From: Rhypophila decipiens
Taxonomy: Eukaryota > Ascomycota > Sordariomycetes > Sordariales > Naviculisporaceae
Direction of reading: 5' to 3'
Assembly (NCBI GenBank): GCA_033297075.1
Contig: MU858319.1
Coordinates: 1-28,756, forward strand
Length of the DNA stretch: 28,756 bases
In this document: positions 15,340 to 26,477 of the stretch, piece by piece
How positions within the stretch are numbered: the first letter of the stretch is position 1
Layout of the letters: every line of letters begins with the position of its first letter
Notes under the pieces: generated by a model
The model's input: only the letters and a program-made list of their open reading frames with translations
Told to the model about the DNA's origin: nothing
Database searches by the model: none
Position numbers and translations under genes: made by a program

Positions 15340-17606
15340 CTATAATTCCAGCGCCTTGATCATCCGACACAGGCCGCTGACATTCCCAGCTGTCTGCGCC
15401 AGCTCCCGACCACGCTCGTAGTCGCTATAACCCTGCTCCGTAGCCCTCTCGGCCTCGACAAAGATCTTGAAAGCGAGCCGCTCCGCCCAGATGATGTGGC
15501 GCAGCGTCTCGCGGTCCTCGGGCGGCAGCAGCTTGGACCTCAACACCGCCTCGTGCAGCTCCGAGAATGCCGAGGCGAGCCCCAAGAGCGTAGCGCGGTG
15601 CAGGTTCGGCCGCATGGCGAGGTGCAGCAGCGTAACCGAGAACTCGCACGGCCACATGTCGAGCGCCTCGCGGAGCGACGCCGGCTGCGGCAGCCCCGCC
15701 TGTCGCGCCATGTGCAGGCCCATCTCGACAAGCCCCAAAGTTTCGTCGGTCCGTCGCGCCTCGTCCATGCCCGACACGCCCTCTTCGATGTGGATGAAAC
15801 CGTTATAAGCTCTCAGGACCCGCGTCGCGGCTGCCATGCTCGGGTCGACTGTCCGGGAGGGCACCCCCATGAAGCCCTCCATGACGCACTGGTGTGTCAG
15901 CCAGAGCGGGAGCAGCCGAGCCAGGATCACCTTGGCGTCATGATGCTGCGACGGCGCCGGCCCGAGTTGGAGATGGTCAAGGTGGCTGTCAGTCATGTGG
16001 ATGTCGTTGGCGCTGACGACCTCGCCACGCGGCGAGAAGACCGGGTAGTCAAGACGTATGTCCTTCTTGCAGCCTAACGAGGTGGGCACGTGTGAGTCGG
16101 CCAAGAGGCCGAGGTAGGCCTGCGGGCTGGGGTTGGCCAAGTTGTCGATCCACCGCCGCACGAGATCGACCTCGGCCGAGGTAAAGGACCCAAACATCTT
16201 GCCGCCCCAGGAGAGCTCCTGGATCAGCCGGCTGTTGGCGCTGTTTCCAGCTCGCACCCAGGGCTTCATCCCAGCCAGCACGGAAAGGAACTTTTGCTGG
16301 TTCTGCACCGAGGCGAGGTTCTCGGGGACGAGCCACTGGCTCAGTCTTTGGCCGGCGATCTTGATCTGGCTGGTGCAGTGGATCTGCCCGACCGCGTCTA
16401 CCTTGGCCCTCAAGATCTTGATGATTCTGTCGTCCCATTCGTTGCCGGAGCTGGCCAGAGAGGAGAACTCGGGGTCGGAGAGCGCACGCGATAGGCAGTA
16501 CCCGGCTTGGATCCGCCGCCAGGCCGTCTGCGCGGCCACAGGCCCCTCCGTCACCTCGATGTGCCTGAGGTACTTGGCGACGGTGTTGACTGCCATGGCG
16601 GTGTGGCCGGAATGAGAGTTGTCAATGCTGATGTGGAGGAAGAAGTAGTAGCTGCTGATGTTCAGCTCTTCGAGCTCCCGAGCCGCCATCATGGTCTCGA
16701 GCTGGAGGAGCTCAAAGTGCATATTGTACCCGAGAATCTCTGGAAGGTAGTCGAAGGGGAACAGGGAGATCAGTAGCTGTGCGACGGCCGACTTCCATGT
16801 CCTGGTGTCGGTCATGCCGTGCCTCGGGTGGGTGAAGTCGGCCGAGTGTGCTGGGGGCAAGGAAAAGCCGACTTCTTGCAAGAGCTGGCTGTACAAGTGA
16901 ACATGGTGCTGCTCCAGCTGTCCGTCACCATACTCTTCTGTCATGACTTGCCAGGCGTCTTTGGTCACTTGACGTAGGTTGTACGGCGTGTTGACGCGGT
17001 GAACGTGGCCCAGCCAGGCTCCATCCACCAGCTTGAGTGGTGCCTTCTGCTTGATCCAGTCATGGGCTTCTGTCTTGGTTTGAAACAGTTCGCGCCCGGC
17101 CCCGGACTTCCGCTTCGTTGTGTATTGTTCCCATTGGGAGGCGACATGAGTATCGTGCCTGGTGACAAAGGCCTCCAGGGATTCTGGCTCGAAGCTGTCC
17201 AGAGCCAGGATCGAGCCGTGTCTCTTTTGCTCCCAGGATAGGCTCTTGGCCAACAAAGAGATTAGTATGTCGTTTGACTGTGAGAGGACATCATGGTGGT
17301 CCTCTAGATTGTGCAGTTTGAAGTACAGCCTCTTGTACAACTCAAGCTCGTTGTCTTCAGTAGTCTGTGCCGAAGCTTGCGGGACTGAAAAGGCTATTAG
17401 TAACGTTTATTTCCACGGTGTGTGTTGAGAAAGGGGACAGAGAACGAACCAACTGGCTTCAAGTCGCGCGGTAACTCCAATGGATGGGCAGATTGCTTTC
17501 TTCTCTGGAGCCCCCAGATCAAGATGGCGATTCCACAAAGACCCAATGTAATAGGGAAATAGGTAGACATTTTGGGAGACTGTGACAGACAGGCCTGATT
17601 TGACAT
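15340..17606 (-). CDS. membrane-anchored haem-oxygenase-like diiron oxidase (iron-containing redox enzyme, PF14518-like)
   Basis: Model: complement(15340..17384, 17450..17606), 733 residues, with one 65-nt intron (donor GTTCGT, branch TTACTAAT, acceptor TTTTCAG). The N-terminus carries one hydrophobic helix (YFPITLGLCGIAILIWGL, residues 16-33) followed by QRRK and a proline-containing linker, as in ER-anchored P450s. The HDO signature is in the first half: EEYGDGQLEQHH (Glu202/203, His212/213), an acidic helix (FELLQLETMMAAREL, about 276-290) and LHISIDNSHSGH (His303, Asp307, His310, His313), spaced like the Glu/His metal ligands of the family. Known HDOs use a non-haem diiron or iron site and O2 to N-oxygenate, desaturate, cleave C-C bonds or fragment amino acids. 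The C-terminal ~350 residues are helical and not assigned. It diverges from the flavin-protein gene at 19489. Its substrate is unknown; an amino acid or amine is my inference. Confidence 0.8.
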
Positions 17607-19488
17607 GATTTCCGGTCAGTTTGCTCGAGGGTAGCATGCTGTAGAGCAGATTTTGATATGATATATTATATCTAGGTTCCCAGATGACCACCTTAATCCT
17701 GATTACGAATCCGTATTTGCCTCACCTGGAGCCAGAGACCTCGCGTCAGGGGGTAATATAATGTCGGGATCCTGTCGGCCTGCCCCTTGAAGTCGTGATT
17801 CACCTTACCAGGGTTCCGAAGAAGCCAAGTCAGGTCAATTGAACCCCCATTTGGGTTAGCTTGAACGAATACAGGCCACATTAACTTGACAAATAGTTCA
17901 CTTTAATAGATTTGATTCATTCAAGCCCTCGAATAATAGCTGGGAAAATGGTAGGAAATGAAGCTATTCCTTGGTTTCAGCGGGCAAAAGTCGGTTCAGG
18001 GTTAGGGTTATGTTTGGTCGCTCGGACTCGCTCCACCAGGTCAAGTAATCCAAGTAGTTCAGTCAGTGGTCTGGCTAGATTGAGTTACTAGCTTGACAGT
18101 GTTTCGACCTCTTTAATTGGATTATGTTCAGTTGATTTGCCTATGCTTTCAAAAACTGGGCTTGTTCGGAGCCCGGCCTTGCACTGCCCTATTCCTTGTG
18201 CAACCTCTCGCATATATGGGCCGAGATGATGGTGTAACCTTCGATTCTAGACCTCCTCACCTGGACATCTAGGCCGTCCCCTGAATTTGGCTTACACTGG
18301 ATGTTCTTTCAGAACCACGGCCCTGACTCATAGTCGGCCGCAGGTTGGGCCTTGCATTGAATGGCTAAGAGTCCTGCTGTACCATGATAGGGTGGTCAGA
18401 CTGTGACACAATTACCTAAAGATGAACAACAGTAAAACTTGGCGATACGTAGTCGCTCCCGTATACGGAGCGTCGGGCCAAGAGAAAATCCCACTCTGAT
18501 CGTCCCCCTGCAAGAGTTGGTTCGCCAACACAGTGCTAACTGGAGTTTGTCGACTTTCGACCTTGGCATTAATATGGGCATGCAAGCCCCTGAGCCCCTG
18601 GTCAAGACTTTCTTTTGGCCCGAGGCTCCGTACTCTCGAACCATTGGTGTACAAGCCAACCCCAGAGGGTTTGTTGGTTTGGTACAAACAGTGGCAACGA
18701 TGCCAGGGCCTTTGAGCCATTGCCTTCAGATGCATAATATGGAAGCAAGAGCTGGTGTCTAATCTTATCGTTATTCTGCTGCGTTTTGAGTGAAAAGTGG
18801 ATTCGAGGTACAAAAAAGTGGAAAACAAGTGGGTTTTGTACCGATCTAACAAACCCTCCAGTGCTGGGTTGTAGCTCTTCATACTTGGTGGCGGACAAGG
18901 TTAAAGCTGCTATAATCATGTATACGGCCAACGAGGCTGAAATATCACATTTATCCGTATGAGATCTGCACTAGGCTTCATGGTCTAGTGCTGAAATAGG
19001 CTTTGCTCTATTTGGAAGGCGGTATTCTGTGGTCTACCGTCTTATGCACCTTGGGTCGCGGATCTCAACCGTCCTTCCCCGTAGGAAGTTCCCCACTACG
19101 AAAACCCCTGCATGCCGTGATCTTCCCGTCTTCGCAGGATTCCATGGCTTTGGGAGTCAAATCTGGTTGGGCCGCCAACGACCGGAATTTGGGAGCAAGG
19201 TGCAGAACTGCAGATCCCCGCCAAAGAGCGGGCATATGATTTTCGTAGTGTAACATTCAAGAACGAACAGTCAGCACCCCACATACTCGAGTACCCGACA
19301 TTCTTCGGAATAACTCGAACAAAATCGGGCCATCACATAATTCGTCATTCGTAATTAAAATTCTGTGCTTCCTCCTGCACTGCTCTTCTGCTCTGTAAGC
19401 AGACTTCTTTCTTGTCCTGTCCGGTGGAACTCCTCCTCATTCTCTTCACCGACAATTGATTCCTCACTTCTGAAATCACGACTGCAAC
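17607..19488. promoter_or_regulatory. long divergent intergenic region between HDO and NimA-like genes, with inverted repeats
   Basis: 1.88 kb without a supported gene. An AT-rich TATA-like stretch (ATATAATATATC on the minus strand) lies about 50 bp upstream of the HDO start. Two imperfect inverted-repeat pairs sit at 18464-18632 and 18665-18858. A GTCAGCAC octamer at 19270-19277 lies upstream of the flavin-protein gene. A short telomere-like GGGTTAGGGTTA is at 17999-18010. The minus-strand frame 18412-18882 lies over the repeats and is probably not a gene. Confidence 0.45.
18464..18858. repeat. two imperfect inverted repeat pairs
   Basis: Pair 1: TACGGAGCGTCGGGCCAAGA (from 18464) matches the reverse complement of 18611-18632 at 20 of 22 positions. 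Pair 2: GAGGGTTTGTTGGTTTGGTA (from 18665) matches the reverse complement of 18834-18858 at about 21 of 25 positions, and similarity continues weakly on both sides. A further diverged copy may lie at 18523-18552. This suggests a cluster of decayed small inverted-repeat elements (MITE-like) rather than one clean hairpin. Alignment by eye only. Confidence 0.5.
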
Positions 19489-20280
19489 ATGGAAGAATCC
19501 TATTCCTACCCAGTGGAAGCACGAAATACCGTTCGCCGCCATCGCGAGCGGGCCAAGTACGACTACGAGACGGTGCACGCCATTGTAGACGCGTCGTCAA
19601 TCTTACACGTCTCCTTTCTGCCTACGGACCCTGAGAATGACCCCTACCCGACCATCCTGCCCATGATCGGCTCAATGGGCTCGTTCAAGGGCGAATCATC
19701 GGATGGGGCTCAGGACCTGTACCTCCACGGCCACAGTGCCTCGCGGATCATGCGGCTCGCTGGTGGTGGCGGATCTGACGGCATCCCCGTCTGCGTTGCC
19801 GCCACGCAGCTCGACGGCATCAAGCTGTCGCTCACGCCCTTCAACAACAGCTGCAATTATCGAAGCGCGGTGCTGCACGGCGATGCCGAGGTGGTTACTG
19901 ACGAGGCCGAGAAGGACTTTGCCCTGCGCCTCATCACCGACGGCCTGGTGCCGGGGTGCTGGGATAACCAGCGCGTGCCGCCAACGCGCAGCGAGAACCT
20001 GAGCACCAGCGTCCTCCGCGTCCGCATCGCCACTGCCAGCGCCAAGATCAACCAGGGTGGGCCCGCCGACGACCGCAAGGATCTGCAGAACGATGAGGTG
20101 ACGGGCAAGGTCTGGACCGGCACCCTGCCCGTCTGGGAGTGTGTTGGCACCCCCATCGCCAGCGCCACCAACAAGGTCGCCAAGGTCCCTGACTATGTCT
20201 TGCGGAAGCAGCAGAATCAAAACGCGGAGAACGAGAAGTACGCACGAGAGACGGTTAGTGTAACCAAGGAGAAGAAGTAA
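19489..20280 (+). CDS. FMN-binding split-barrel flavoprotein, NimA / pyridoxamine-5'-phosphate-oxidase-like
   Basis: Single exon, 263 residues. The pattern RRHRERAKYDYETVHAIVDA, then PTILPMIGSMG, LYLHGHSASRIMR and GIPVCVAATQLDGIKLS fits the Pyridox_ox_2 (PF12900-like) flavin-nucleotide-binding family that includes the 5-nitroimidazole-resistance protein NimA. The YLHGHSASR element follows the usual position of the FMN-phosphate contact in these barrels. The strands after it (VLHGDAEVVTDEAEKDFALR) and the late GKVWTGTLPVWE motif also match. The last ~40 residues (KQQNQNAENEKYARE...) are a charged tail. No signal peptide. NimA-type proteins reduce nitro groups, and other members reduce diverse electrophiles using flavin. 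It ends 112 bp before the convergent TyrRS gene. Reduction of an N-oxidised intermediate made by the HDO is an attractive but unproved role. Confidence 0.8.
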   Translation: MEESYSYPVEARNTVRRHRERAKYDYETVHAIVDASSILHVSFLPTDPENDPYPTILPMIGSMGSFKGESSDGAQDLYLHGHSASRIMRLAGGGGSDGIPVCVAATQLDGIKLSLTPFNNSCNYRSAVLHGDAEVVTDEAEKDFALRLITDGLVPGCWDNQRVPPTRSENLSTSVLRVRIATASAKINQGGPADDRKDLQNDEVTGKVWTGTLPVWECVGTPIASATNKVAKVPDYVLRKQQNQNAENEKYARETVSVTKEKK

Positions 20281-20392: not shown

Positions 20393-21714
20393 TCAGTTTC
20401 CTTCTGGATAAGCCAATCTGTCTACCTCCTGCCATTCCCTGCTTTCCGCATAGGCTGCTCGAATCGGAGCCAAGAGCACATTGAAAGAGTCAATTACAGC
20501 CTGCTTTAGAGCTTCCGGATGCACCTGGCCTGCTACAAATGCCGTCTCGATTTCCTCGTACGAGGCAAAGTGCTTTTCCTCCACGTCGCCTCCGCCGACA
20601 GTGAAGATGGTGCCGGTCGGCGCCTTCAGGCTACAAAAGGGATGCTGCCCAACGGAATAGCCGCTATTCTCGTCATCGTAGAGCTCCGTCTTTCCCAGAA
20701 GCCTCTCGGCCCGCTGCTGACTGATGGGGAACAGGACGTCACGGAGCAGGCCTAGGACGCCGTTGTCGGCTACCTGCCGCTCTGGGCAAGCTGCCTTGGA
20801 AACCTTGTCACGCACAGTCTCGGGGTCGTCCAGGAACTCGATCTTGGTGTGAGCAGGCTTGGACGAGGACATCTTCAAGCCGTCGAGTCCCGCCACCATG
20901 ACGTTCATGATGTGTTCGCGGCGGCGATACCCAAGCTTGGGGATGAACTTTTTGGCGTGTTCAAACAGACCGGTCTAGAAAGCTTGGTCAGCTCTGTGAA
21001 CCCATGTGAATTTGGCAATTTTCTGAATCTACGAACCTGGTCCTCGCCGCCATACTGGATATCCAAGTCCAAGTACTGTTCCGAGAGCGACTGGTGGATA
21101 GAGCAGAGCAGGGGACTTATCATGTCGCATTCGGACACCTCGGTCGAGGTAGCTCGCGCATCGTCCTGCTTCATGATGGCGCAGAGGCGCTGCACGTCCA
21201 CGACGAACGGCTTGGTGTAGGCCAGGCTGGACTCGGCCACGAAGTGGACCTTGGATGGCGAGACCCCGAGCGCCTTCAGGATGGCGGTCACCAAGAAGTG
21301 GTAATAGCGCTGCCGGTAAGCCACTGTCTCCATGGAGTGGACATAGTTGACCAGGAACCCGTAGGTATCGAGGTAGTATACCGTCACCTAGAAGAAAAAC
21401 TATCAGCGTCCAGTTCAATCAACTGGTTGTCTTTGATGGGGCGGCGCACATCAAGCCCAGCCCTGAGAAAGTCAATCAGCTTGGCTATCGGTACAAAGTA
21501 GCCGACGTGGGCTACTCGGAAATGAGGTCAGCCAACTACATTCTCTCCTAGCAGCCATGGAGGAGAACATACGCTTGCCGGTGGGCGTGGTCTCCCAAGC
21601 CAACTTCAGCCTGGGTTTCTTTTCCAGCAGCTGCTTCAACGACTCTGCGTCGGCATCCTCGAGGAAGGATTGCCTCCTGGCAATGAGGTCAAACTTTTCC
21701 TGTGTCGAGAGCAT
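20393..21714 (-). CDS. cytosolic-type tyrosyl-tRNA synthetase paralogue with altered amino-acid pocket
   Basis: Model: complement(20393..20974, 21037..21387, 21450..21511, 21573..21714), 378 residues, with three introns of 61, 62 and 62 nt. The start is the ATG at 21714 (MLSTQEKFDL); upstream in-frame sequence has no ATG. It aligns end to end with eukaryotic/archaeal TyrRS (human residues 1 to ~350, without the EMAP-II tail). Both class I motifs are intact: PHVGY (48-52, HIGH equivalent) and KMSSS (219-223). The C-terminal anticodon-binding region is present (DNGVLGLLRDVLFPI, HPEALKQAVIDSFNVLLAPI). The tyrosine pocket is not: human Tyr39 is Ala39 (LAWETTPTGK), Asp173 is Ser170 (HQSLSEQYL), and four residues including Tyr166 are deleted; Gln170 is retained as Gln167. 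A TATA box (TATATAA, 21796-21802) lies about 85 bp upstream. It shares its promoter with the DHA2 exporter. Likely a cluster-borne enzyme activating a non-tyrosine amino acid, or a resistant copy; not a normal housekeeping gene. Confidence 0.88.
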
Positions 21715-22237: not shown

Positions 22238-23954
22238 ATGGGGAAATCATCGAAGCATTACGATGGGCAATCTCTGCCTGCCAGCACTGCAGAACTGGTG
22301 AATGGTGCACCGGGCAATGCATCTGACCTCGATTCTCCCAACGAGAAATCTGTTCTCGAGTCCGGGTCCGTCCAGGATCAAGGGGAAGAACAAAAACTCC
22401 ATCTTCCACTCGTCCTCACTTTGGCGGGGGCAGCGTTTCTCAATGTAAGCTGTTTCGCTGTTTCATCCATACACCTACACACAAAATCTCATAAAGGCCC
22501 ATGGGCTAAAAACTTGATACAATCACCAGACCCTTGCCGTCCAGTCGACAGTCATTATCCTGCCCAGTATCAGCCATGACTTGGGGATACCAGCGGAGCG
22601 CCAGCAATGGGTCATCTCGGCCTACTACCTCACCTTTGGATGCTTCCTGCTGCTCTGGGGCCGGCTGGCGGACCTGTTCGGTCGGCGCCTGGTATTCCTC
22701 GTCGGCTCGGTTTGGTTGACGGTTGCCACCATCGTGGTCCCTTTTGCGCCGCACGAGATCGTCCTGGATCTGTTCCGCGGCTTCCAGGGCCTAGGCGCCG
22801 CCGCCAACGTGCCCACGGCCATTGGGATCCTCGGTGCCAAATTCAGACCCGGAAAGCAAAAGAACTACGCCTTCGCCATCTACTCGGCCGGTTCCTCGTG
22901 CGGCTCTGTCCTCGGCAACATCTTCAGCGGCGTGATTGCCCAGTTCGTCAGTTGGAAATGGATCTTTTGGATCTCGGCCGTATTTTGTGGGATCATCACT
23001 CTGGCTGGCTACTTTCTGATACCCTACGACGACGAAAAGGTTGAAGAGGTTGCGACGACTCTTGCTGCGTCGTCTTCCTCGCCTGTTCCCAGCATCTTGC
23101 TCAATGTCGACTGGTTGGGCGGCACCCTGGTGTCGGGCGGTCTGCTGTTGCTCCTGTTTACCCTGACACAAGGCAACGTGGTTGGATGGTCCAACTTCTG
23201 GGTCCCGCTGCTGTTGGTCCTCTCTGTCGCCCTGCTGGTCTTGTTCGCCCTGTGGATCTGGTACCTCGAGACAAGAACCAAGCGCCCGCCGCTCATGCGG
23301 ATTTCCATCTTCTACAACGCCCGCTTCAACGCCGCGCAAGTCATCATGGCCAGCTTCTTTGCCGCGTTCAACAACTATCTCGTCCACGCGACATACTTTT
23401 ACCAGGACTACCAAGGACTCGGACCCCTGGAGACGGCAATCCGTTTCATCCCGACAGGAATCATGGGCATCTTGGGGAACGTCGTCGCGGCCGTACTTCT
23501 CTCGCGGGTTCCAGGCTCGCACCTGCTCGTCTTTAGCTGTGCCTGCGTGAGCATATCGTGTCTGCTAATGGCGGTGCCGATCCCGCCCTCGGTCAGCTAC
23601 TGGGCCTACGGGTTCCCGGCCATGATGCTGTCAACACTGGGGGCCGATATCCTGCACCCTACTCTGAACCTCTTCACAGTGCAGTCTCTGCCACCAGACG
23701 ACCAGGCCCTCGGCGCCGCTGTCATCACCGCCGCCCTGCAGATTGGCCGCGCCATCGGGATTACCGTTGCCACCGTCATCCAGACTTCGGTAGAAGGAGC
23801 AGCCGCGTCTGCAAGACACGAGGATCCTCTTTATGCCTTGCTCCAGGGACTCCACGCGGCCCAGTGGTTTAACTTTTCGCTTGCTGTCGCATCTTGTATC
23901 GTGGTCTTGCTGTTTTTCCGAGGAAGAGAAAAGGTGGGGGCGGTCAAGAAATGA
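22238..23954 (+). CDS. MFS drug:H+ antiporter, DHA2-type (14-TM, Atr1-like)
   Basis: Model: join(22238..22444, 22530..23954), 543 residues; an 85-nt intron (donor GTAAGC, acceptor CACCAG) in phase 0 after AAFLN. A ~55-residue hydrophilic N-terminus precedes the membrane domain. MFS motif A is clear (GRLADLFGRR), followed by FRGFQGLGAAANVPTAIG (motif B region, with the Arg) and the antiporter-type motif C region (YSAGSSCGSVLGN). The central segment VDWLGGTLVSGGLLLLLFTL followed by TQGNVVGW is characteristic of fungal DHA2 members of the aminotriazole-resistance (Atr1) kind. About 14 hydrophobic helices can be counted. Probably a plasma-membrane proton-driven exporter. It is transcribed divergently from the TyrRS paralogue, which suggests efflux of the cluster product, or self-protection. 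Confidence 0.88.
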
Positions 23955-25460: not shown

Positions 25461-26477
25461 CTAATTTCCACCATCCAGCCGCCTGGCCCAGTCCGCCTTG
25501 GTAGCGTGCGAGGGGCGCAAAAAGTACGACAGGTAGAATCGCTTGTGGGCGCCATCCCGAGGCTGGGTGACGCGATGAAGCGGTGAGAGGAATTGACCGC
25601 CCGACAGGCGCTGCAGAGAGTCGGCCACGGTGACGAGGGCGCAGCCCGCTGGGGGCACGGGCGCGTACGCCCACCTGTTTTCGCGGGGCAGGTAGACGTG
25701 CAGGCCCAGCCGCTCGTAGAAGAGCAGAGTGAACGTGCCGCTGTCGGTGTGCTTGTTCTCCACCACGTCGGCCGCCGAGGCGAGCGTCGGCTCGCAAATA
25801 AGCTTGAGACCCGTGTCGCTGCTATCATCGGTCTGGTGGTACGTCTCGAAGCGCTGGGCCCCCTCGAGGCCCATCGAGTCAGACAGCGATGAGAGCATGC
25901 CCATGGTGGCGGCGTGGCAGACCCGGTTGAAGTTGCGAACTAGGTCGCTCTTTCCCTGCAGAGTGATTGGGAGCTTTATATCACCGCGAAAGAGCTCGTC
26001 GTCGGCAAACTTGCGAAACCACATTAATTAGCAAAAGTTCTATCCGTGAAATGAAAACAAATGAATGCATAATCGGTAATCACCTCGAATGTCTCGTCAC
26101 AGTCGCTTCGCTTGTACCTATCACAGAGCCAGTTAGGCGCGCGCAACATGGAAGCAAACCGGGATTGATGGAGATATTTACCCACGGTCCTGGGAGGGAA
26201 GTTGATCGTCACGCGCATCCCTTGATTTCTCCTCATCGGGGCGCTCAAAGTAGCGATCGGACAAGGCATACAACTGCTCGATAGTGTCAAGAATGTCCTT
26301 GTGGCTGCTTCGAAAGTCCAAAATGAAGCCTCCAGGCCGTGTAGCAGCATCGTAGAGCTTTTTCTGCTCTTGAGAGTCGCCAGCCACGATACGGGCCAGT
26401 TGGATTGTCGGCAGCTGGAGCGTATCGACGCCTGTCGTAGACTCGGATTCGTGCGTGAGTTGCATGGTGGTTGTCAT
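25461..26477 (-). CDS. Fe(II)/2-oxoglutarate-dependent oxygenase (isopenicillin-N-synthase-like)
   Basis: Model: complement(25461..26009, 26084..26117, 26182..26477), 292 residues. The introns are 64 nt (donor GTAAAT, branch CCTAAC, acceptor GATAG) and 74 nt (donor GTGATT, branch TGCTAAT, acceptor GCAAG); the middle exon is only 34 nt. The N-terminal DIOX_N-like part has LPTIQLARIV and GGFILDF. The jelly-roll core shows the iron triad: KHTD (His197, Asp199) and the distal His255 (PLHRV), then Arg267 (RFYLSYFLRP) for 2-oxoglutarate. The joined GYKRSDCDETFE segment matches the usual GYK region. At 292 residues it is slightly shorter than the ~330 typical of the family. Soluble, cytosolic. Such enzymes hydroxylate, desaturate, epoxidise or cyclise; free or carrier-bound amino acids are frequent substrates. 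It is divergent from the MFS gene at 27153, implying co-regulation. Confidence 0.87.

Follow-up and report, generated by a model that had tools for sequence, protein, structure and literature searches.

According to the parts of the published accounts available, the bacterial hydrazine synthetases PyrN, Spb40 and Tri28 are of methionyl-tRNA synthetase (MetRS) ancestry, and are encoded with an N-oxygenating enzyme, having a lysine/ornithine N-hydroxylase and a cupin as partners (PMC8664883; PMC11705231); in PyrN, the MetRS-like domain joins glutamate to N6-hydroxylysine in a tRNA-independent manner (PMC8664883). The cyclodipeptide synthases and ErdS, a fungal fusion of aspartyl-tRNA synthetase (AspRS) with DUF2156, are also synthetase-related enzymes recruited outside translation, and both use aminoacyl-tRNA; AlbC is structurally similar to the tyrosyl- and tryptophanyl-tRNA synthetases (TyrRS and TrpRS), without the tRNA-binding C-terminal domain (PMC9437257, sections available). 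Here we describe a TyrRS-like gene (20393-21714) of the fungus Rhypophila decipiens (Sordariales, Naviculisporaceae), located in a window, the whole stretch of DNA analysed, that is one entire contig of 28756 bases. We consider it rather probable that its product is a TyrRS-derived, amino-acid-activating biosynthetic ligase, probably neither specific for tyrosine nor a user of tRNA-Tyr, which works with a haem-oxygenase-like diiron oxygenase (HDO) encoded nearby. The locus would thereby resemble ErdS and the cyclodipeptide synthases in recruitment outside translation, and PyrN, Spb40 and Tri28 in that a synthetase-derived enzyme is encoded with an N-oxygenating one, N-oxygenation here being predicted from the fold. 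Unlike the latter, it is fungal, of TyrRS ancestry and partnered by an HDO, with no cupin named in the 29 window open reading frames (ORFs) scanned with Pfam (the contig ends at 28756).

Catalytic pocket and ATP motifs

A sequence-only reading had proposed a TyrRS paralogue at this position, which is borne out by a splice model of four exons on the minus strand, with introns of 61, 62 and 62 bp. The modelled product differs from the R. decipiens protein P0001 at 5/378 residues.

20393-21714, minus strand: TyrRS-like gene, four exons, 378 aa (splice model)
21573..21714, minus strand: exon 1, start codon to the TGK preceding the HIGH-type motif (splice model)
21450..21511, minus strand: exon 2, holding the PHVGY motif (splice model)
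21037..21387, minus strand: exon 3, with human-numbered Tyr77, Cys166, Gln170 and Ser173 and the three-residue deletion
20393..20974, minus strand: exon 4, with KMSSS, an anticodon-domain-like C terminus and the stop

The fold model of the window protein has the Class Ic catalytic fold and an anticodon-binding domain. In comparison with cytosolic eukaryotic TyrRS (yeast 2dlc; human 1n3l, 1q11 and 7rou), the window protein has replacements at Tyr39, Tyr166, Asp173, His77 and the Lys/Arg at position 147 (human numbering), and is without residues 153-155 and the basic C-terminal tail. Tyr39 and Asp173 are pocket contacts in the human TyrRS-resveratrol complex (PMC6207623, in the part available), and their M. 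jannaschii counterparts Tyr32 and Asp158 are described, in the available excerpts, as hydroxyl contacts at which changes have been engineered (PMC9499402; PMC11723616), e.g. Tyr32Gly/Asp158Ser in oNBTyrRS and Tyr32Ala/Asp158Ala in m-oNB-DOPA-RS (PMC9499402). The window protein is like these engineered enzymes in having small residues at the same two hydroxyl-binding positions; unlike them, its changes are natural, are common to a protein group and are accompanied by alteration of the tRNA-reading residues.

The protein group was defined in an alignment of 209 rows (203 database homologs together with the TyrRSs of yeast and human, the window protein and the products of three further TyrRS-type genes from the R. 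decipiens genome), in which rows with Asp at human residue 173 were classed as canonical and those with Ser, Ala or Gly as divergent, giving 157 canonical, 50 divergent and 2 unclassified rows. The window protein has Ala at the Tyr39 position, Cys at that of Tyr166 and Ser at that of Asp173. Proper multiple alignments thus uphold the by-eye assignment of Ala to Tyr39 and of Ser170 to Asp173, whereas the four-residue deletion thought to remove Tyr166 was an error: Tyr166 aligns with Cys, and the gap spans three residues at human 153-155. Where a residue is present, Tyr39 is found in 147/148 canonical and 0/39 divergent rows, and Tyr166 in 156/156 and 0/49 (Cys in 43, Thr in 5, Ser in 1). His77 is invariant in the canonical rows (153/153) and is replaced by Tyr in 46 and Phe in 1 of 47 divergent rows, while Val153-Lys154-Gln155 is present as VKQ in 154/157 canonical rows and is a gap in 50/50 divergent ones. 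Columns that separate the groups cluster in human 142-163 (13/22, P 3.5e-7) and in the listed pocket positions (6/13, P 0.005; 5/12, P 0.017, without the group-defining residue 173). The catalytic part is more acidic in the divergent group (median charge −11.7 versus −0.5).

Retention of the ATP motifs accompanies these losses. The HIGH- and KMSKS-type motifs of the window protein, PHVGY and KMSSS, are both intact, as had been read from the sequence, and a KMSKS-type motif is present in 157/157 canonical and 49/50 divergent rows (one gap). Gln170, Gln182 and Gln188 each occur in 157/157 canonical rows, and in 50/50, 48/50 and 49/49 divergent rows, respectively. The alignment supports loss of the tyrosine-hydroxyl contacts with retention of the ATP motifs throughout the divergent rows analysed. 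Taken on their own, the lost specificity contacts would be compatible with decay to a pseudo-enzyme, or to a regulator without activation chemistry, but the KMSKS-type motif and the three glutamines are conserved in the three subclades while the pocket is still changed, making this explanation very unlikely. The prokaryotic NCBIfam equivalog models NF006330 and TIGR00234 score P0001 below their cut-offs (146.9 versus 220 and 77.8 versus 113.8, respectively); the canonical fungal TyrRS P0024 clears both.

In quick trees without bootstrap, rooted by hand on canonical rows, a single branch with a Shimodaira-Hasegawa-like approximate likelihood ratio (SH-aLRT) support of 100 parts the divergent rows used from the canonical ones, whether the trait columns were included or masked (masked tree, seven trait columns removed: 46 divergent and 44 canonical rows, SH-aLRT 100). 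The divergent side comprises the window's group (22 rows), a second with Lasallia, Fonsecaea, Sclerotinia and a further R. decipiens gene on contig C4 (20 rows), and a third with Endocarpon, Arthroderma and Ophiocordyceps (5 rows, support 94). Among the matches listed, all named divergent members are fungi, the other rows being metagenomic, and several, the closest included, carry the database label tyrosine--tRNA ligase. Named Penicillium homologs share 74-80% identity with the window protein, and the Phyllosticta one 70%; we take these fungi to belong to classes other than that of R. decipiens, and identities this high across classes fit horizontal transfer or patchy loss.

The window gene is not the only TyrRS of the genome, a possibility that would have counted against the paralogue proposal. 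PF00579 matches occur on contigs C16, C118, C10, C215, C85, C275 and C4, of which the residue classification took in C118, C215 and C4 and left out C16, C10 and C85. The C118 protein is canonical at all seven trait positions, including Tyr39, Tyr166, Asp173 and Lys147, and the C4 protein is divergent (LCQAQQE at the seven positions). The pockets of the window (Ala39/Ser173) and C4 (Leu39/Ala173) proteins differ and, judged from these residues, probably serve different amino acids. A second canonical-looking TyrRS, at C215:1-1250 (L012, L030), is likewise canonical at all seven positions, Tyr39, Tyr166, Asp173 and Lys147 among them, and adjoins an amino-acid permease. Its branch is long and its reading frame seems to be broken once; a role in resistance, decay of a duplicate and an assembly error are all conceivable. 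Self-resistance has also to be considered for the window gene, whose product might shield the producer from a cluster-made tyrosine mimic, much as the resistant duplicate TrpRS1 is associated with indolmycin (PMC9437257, in the part available). Such a copy must still use tyrosine and tRNA-Tyr, however, and all divergent rows that cover the hydroxyl contacts and position 147 have them changed, so that we hold this role to be most improbable for the window gene; the canonical-like C215 gene, beside its permease, fits it better.

tRNA-reading residues

Both tRNA-reading ends of the protein are altered. Human position 147 (yeast 151) is Lys/Arg in 157/157 canonical rows and in 0/50 divergent rows, where it is Asp or Glu in 38; yeast Arg151 is, we presume, a contact to the acceptor stem (C1-G72). 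The C1-G72 pair is an identity element of eukaryotic tRNA-Tyr, and in M. jannaschii TyrRS Asp286 is bonded to, and His283 stacked on, anticodon G34, as stated in the portions available of these sources (PMC9976931 and PMC6310243; PMC10135938). The counterpart of the G34-contact motif, through the common HPxxLK pattern, is His337-Pro-Glu-Ala340 in the window protein, and the aligned His+Asp pair is found in 145/153 canonical and 0/50 divergent rows. Among full-length rows, the C-terminal tail past the fold has a median length of 0 residues in 37 divergent and 53 in 148 canonical proteins, the canonical tail having a median of 9 Lys/Arg within its first 30 residues. Since both ends are changed, we favour the view that the window enzyme does not use tRNA-Tyr.

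A possible but unlikely alternative is that the gene encodes an additional tRNA synthetase, loading some tRNA with an amino acid other than tyrosine to feed a tRNA-dependent biosynthesis. The window model keeps its anticodon-binding domain and can be aligned with yeast TyrRS across residues 3-375, and tRNA-dependent biosynthesis by a synthetase paralogue has a precedent in SbzA, which uses Ile-tRNA (PMC9437257, in the sections available). Set against this are the replacement of the position-147 Lys/Arg and the adjoining gap (each 50/50), the missing His+Asp pair, the absence of the Lys-rich tail and the finding that no transferase was recognised in the 29 window ORFs scanned.

Pairing with a diiron oxygenase

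The TyrRS-like stop is separated from the HDO start by 2.8 kb. These and the neighbouring genes are as follows:

15340..17570, minus strand: haem-oxygenase-like diiron oxygenase (HDO, PF14518), 721 aa, Pfam E 1.1e-30
19489..20280, plus strand: PNPOx-like protein (PF12900), between the HDO and TyrRS-like genes, Pfam E 4.7e-31
22238..23954, plus strand: major facilitator superfamily (MFS) transporter, adjoining the TyrRS-like gene, Pfam E 1.5e-42 for 22581-23951, start ATG and open first exon
about 25461-26477, minus strand: 2-oxoglutarate (2OG)-Fe(II) oxygenase, Pfam E 6e-10 for 25461-26024, frames read with a partial intron model

The HDO gene has one intron (17385-17449; splice model against P0121, 0/721 residues different), and the fold model of its product has the haem-oxygenase-like fold, with N-oxygenases as the nearest solved folds. 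Relative to the HDO N-oxygenases RohS, HrmI and SznF, the protein is 13-16% identical and has an extra C-terminal region. Five positions of its diiron site match the SznF spacing, of the full 3-His/3-carboxylate set. Residue 298 is Asp in 106/122 rows and His in 14, and the metal site may therefore not be uniform among family members; ten rows, the window's among them, have His200/His298.

A second pair is present on C4, where an HDO open frame (579356-581782, minus strand) adjoins the divergent TyrRS-like gene (582968-584717, plus strand). The window and C4 HDOs are 36% identical and the TyrRS-like proteins 34-48% by segment, a divergence strong enough that the pairing is either old or was formed twice. 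The 5 kb on each side of the three HDO genes of this genome (window, C4 and C3) make up, by simple arithmetic, <0.1% of its 45.7 Mb. Among other fungi, the TyrRS-like and HDO records carry an equal-sized longest contig in Naviculisporaceae sp. PSN 640 (83798), Penicillium cosmopolitanum (4365462), Phyllosticta citrichinensis (2758609) and Lasallia pustulata (112195), so that one-contig pairing is indicated in 5/8 organisms named in both match lists, including R. decipiens, where it was read directly in the window. The earlier description of the gene as sitting among oxygenases fits the window, with its HDO and 2OG-Fe(II) oxygenase, and is strengthened by the C4 pair and these four fungi.

Candidates for further membership of the module are the genes for the PNPOx-like protein, the 2OG oxygenase and the MFS transporter. 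No NRPS (nonribosomal peptide synthetase) or PKS (polyketide synthase) domain was found in the 29 window ORFs scanned. Dispersed repeats lie between the HDO and PNPOx genes at 17809-18178 (about 370 bp) and 18650-18873 (about 225 bp), with copies on many contigs, the longer mostly 72-78% identical. Directly beside the C4 pair is an M20-type peptidase (C4:577796-579217), which might release or trim a product. The third HDO gene (C3:503407-503973) is near a DHHC palmitoyltransferase and an ABC transporter, with no TyrRS-like neighbour among the ORFs scanned. Three bacterial HDO relatives (L031, L033 and L087; two from Pseudomonas, one from a Verrucomicrobiaceae metagenome-assembled genome) have a small-domain methyltransferase directly downstream.

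Proposed chemistry and significance

We propose that the TyrRS-like enzyme would activate a non-tyrosine amino acid as its aminoacyl-AMP, as inferred from the pocket residues, and would then pass on the acyl moiety to a small-molecule acceptor or some other carrier in place of tRNA-Tyr, the neighbouring HDO oxidising the same amino acid or the acceptor. This proposal draws on the retained ATP motifs and glutamines, the lost tyrosine and tRNA-Tyr contacts, the nearby oxygenase and the lack of an NRPS or PKS domain in the ORFs scanned. A more specific version would make the pair an independently evolved fungal equivalent of the hydrazine synthetases of bacteria: an amine would be N-hydroxylated, or oxidised further, by the HDO, and the TyrRS-like enzyme would adenylate an amino acid and acylate the N-bound oxygen without tRNA, toward an N-O- or N-N-linked, NRPS-free product. 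We regard this version as rather unlikely; tRNA-independent activation is shown for PyrN (PMC8664883, in the part available) and is only a working model for the window enzyme.

Several observations weigh against a ligase that works with the HDO and dispenses with tRNA. The window pocket is not merely enlarged: bulk is lost at 39, 166 and 173 and gained at 72, 74 and 77 (Leu72Tyr, Ala74Leu, His77Tyr), and we therefore name no substrate. The window enzyme may still make some use of tRNA: its model has a folded anticodon-binding domain and its sequence retains the His of the G34 pair, while 15 divergent rows keep Asp at 340. For the HDO model, the best Foldseek E-value is a weak 0.036, with no match reaching 0.001. 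As to linkage, the two genes are on different contigs in Endocarpon pusillum, Geoglossum simile and Orbilia oligospora, and so are the listed R. decipiens records (64788, 36474), though the window carries both genes. Linkage in the four other fungi is inferred from equal longest-contig size rather than from observed gene order; at 2.8 and 4.4 Mb, two of these shared contigs are weak evidence of closeness. At the 80 loci of bacterial HDO relatives examined, a TyrRS-like neighbour was found at none.

The TyrRS-derived ligase that we nonetheless prefer suggests a so far unstudied route to small molecules from amino acids. The divergent group resembles a natural experiment in TyrRS re-coding, in which the two sites that laboratories alter to accommodate noncanonical amino acids have been changed across a fungal protein group, together with the tRNA contacts. 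If our reading is true, these proteins would provide natural scaffolds for new amino-acid specificities, the combination of TyrRS-like and HDO genes would be a searchable marker of NRPS- and PKS-independent metabolites in fungi, and the family would represent another path from tRNA synthetase to biosynthetic ligase.
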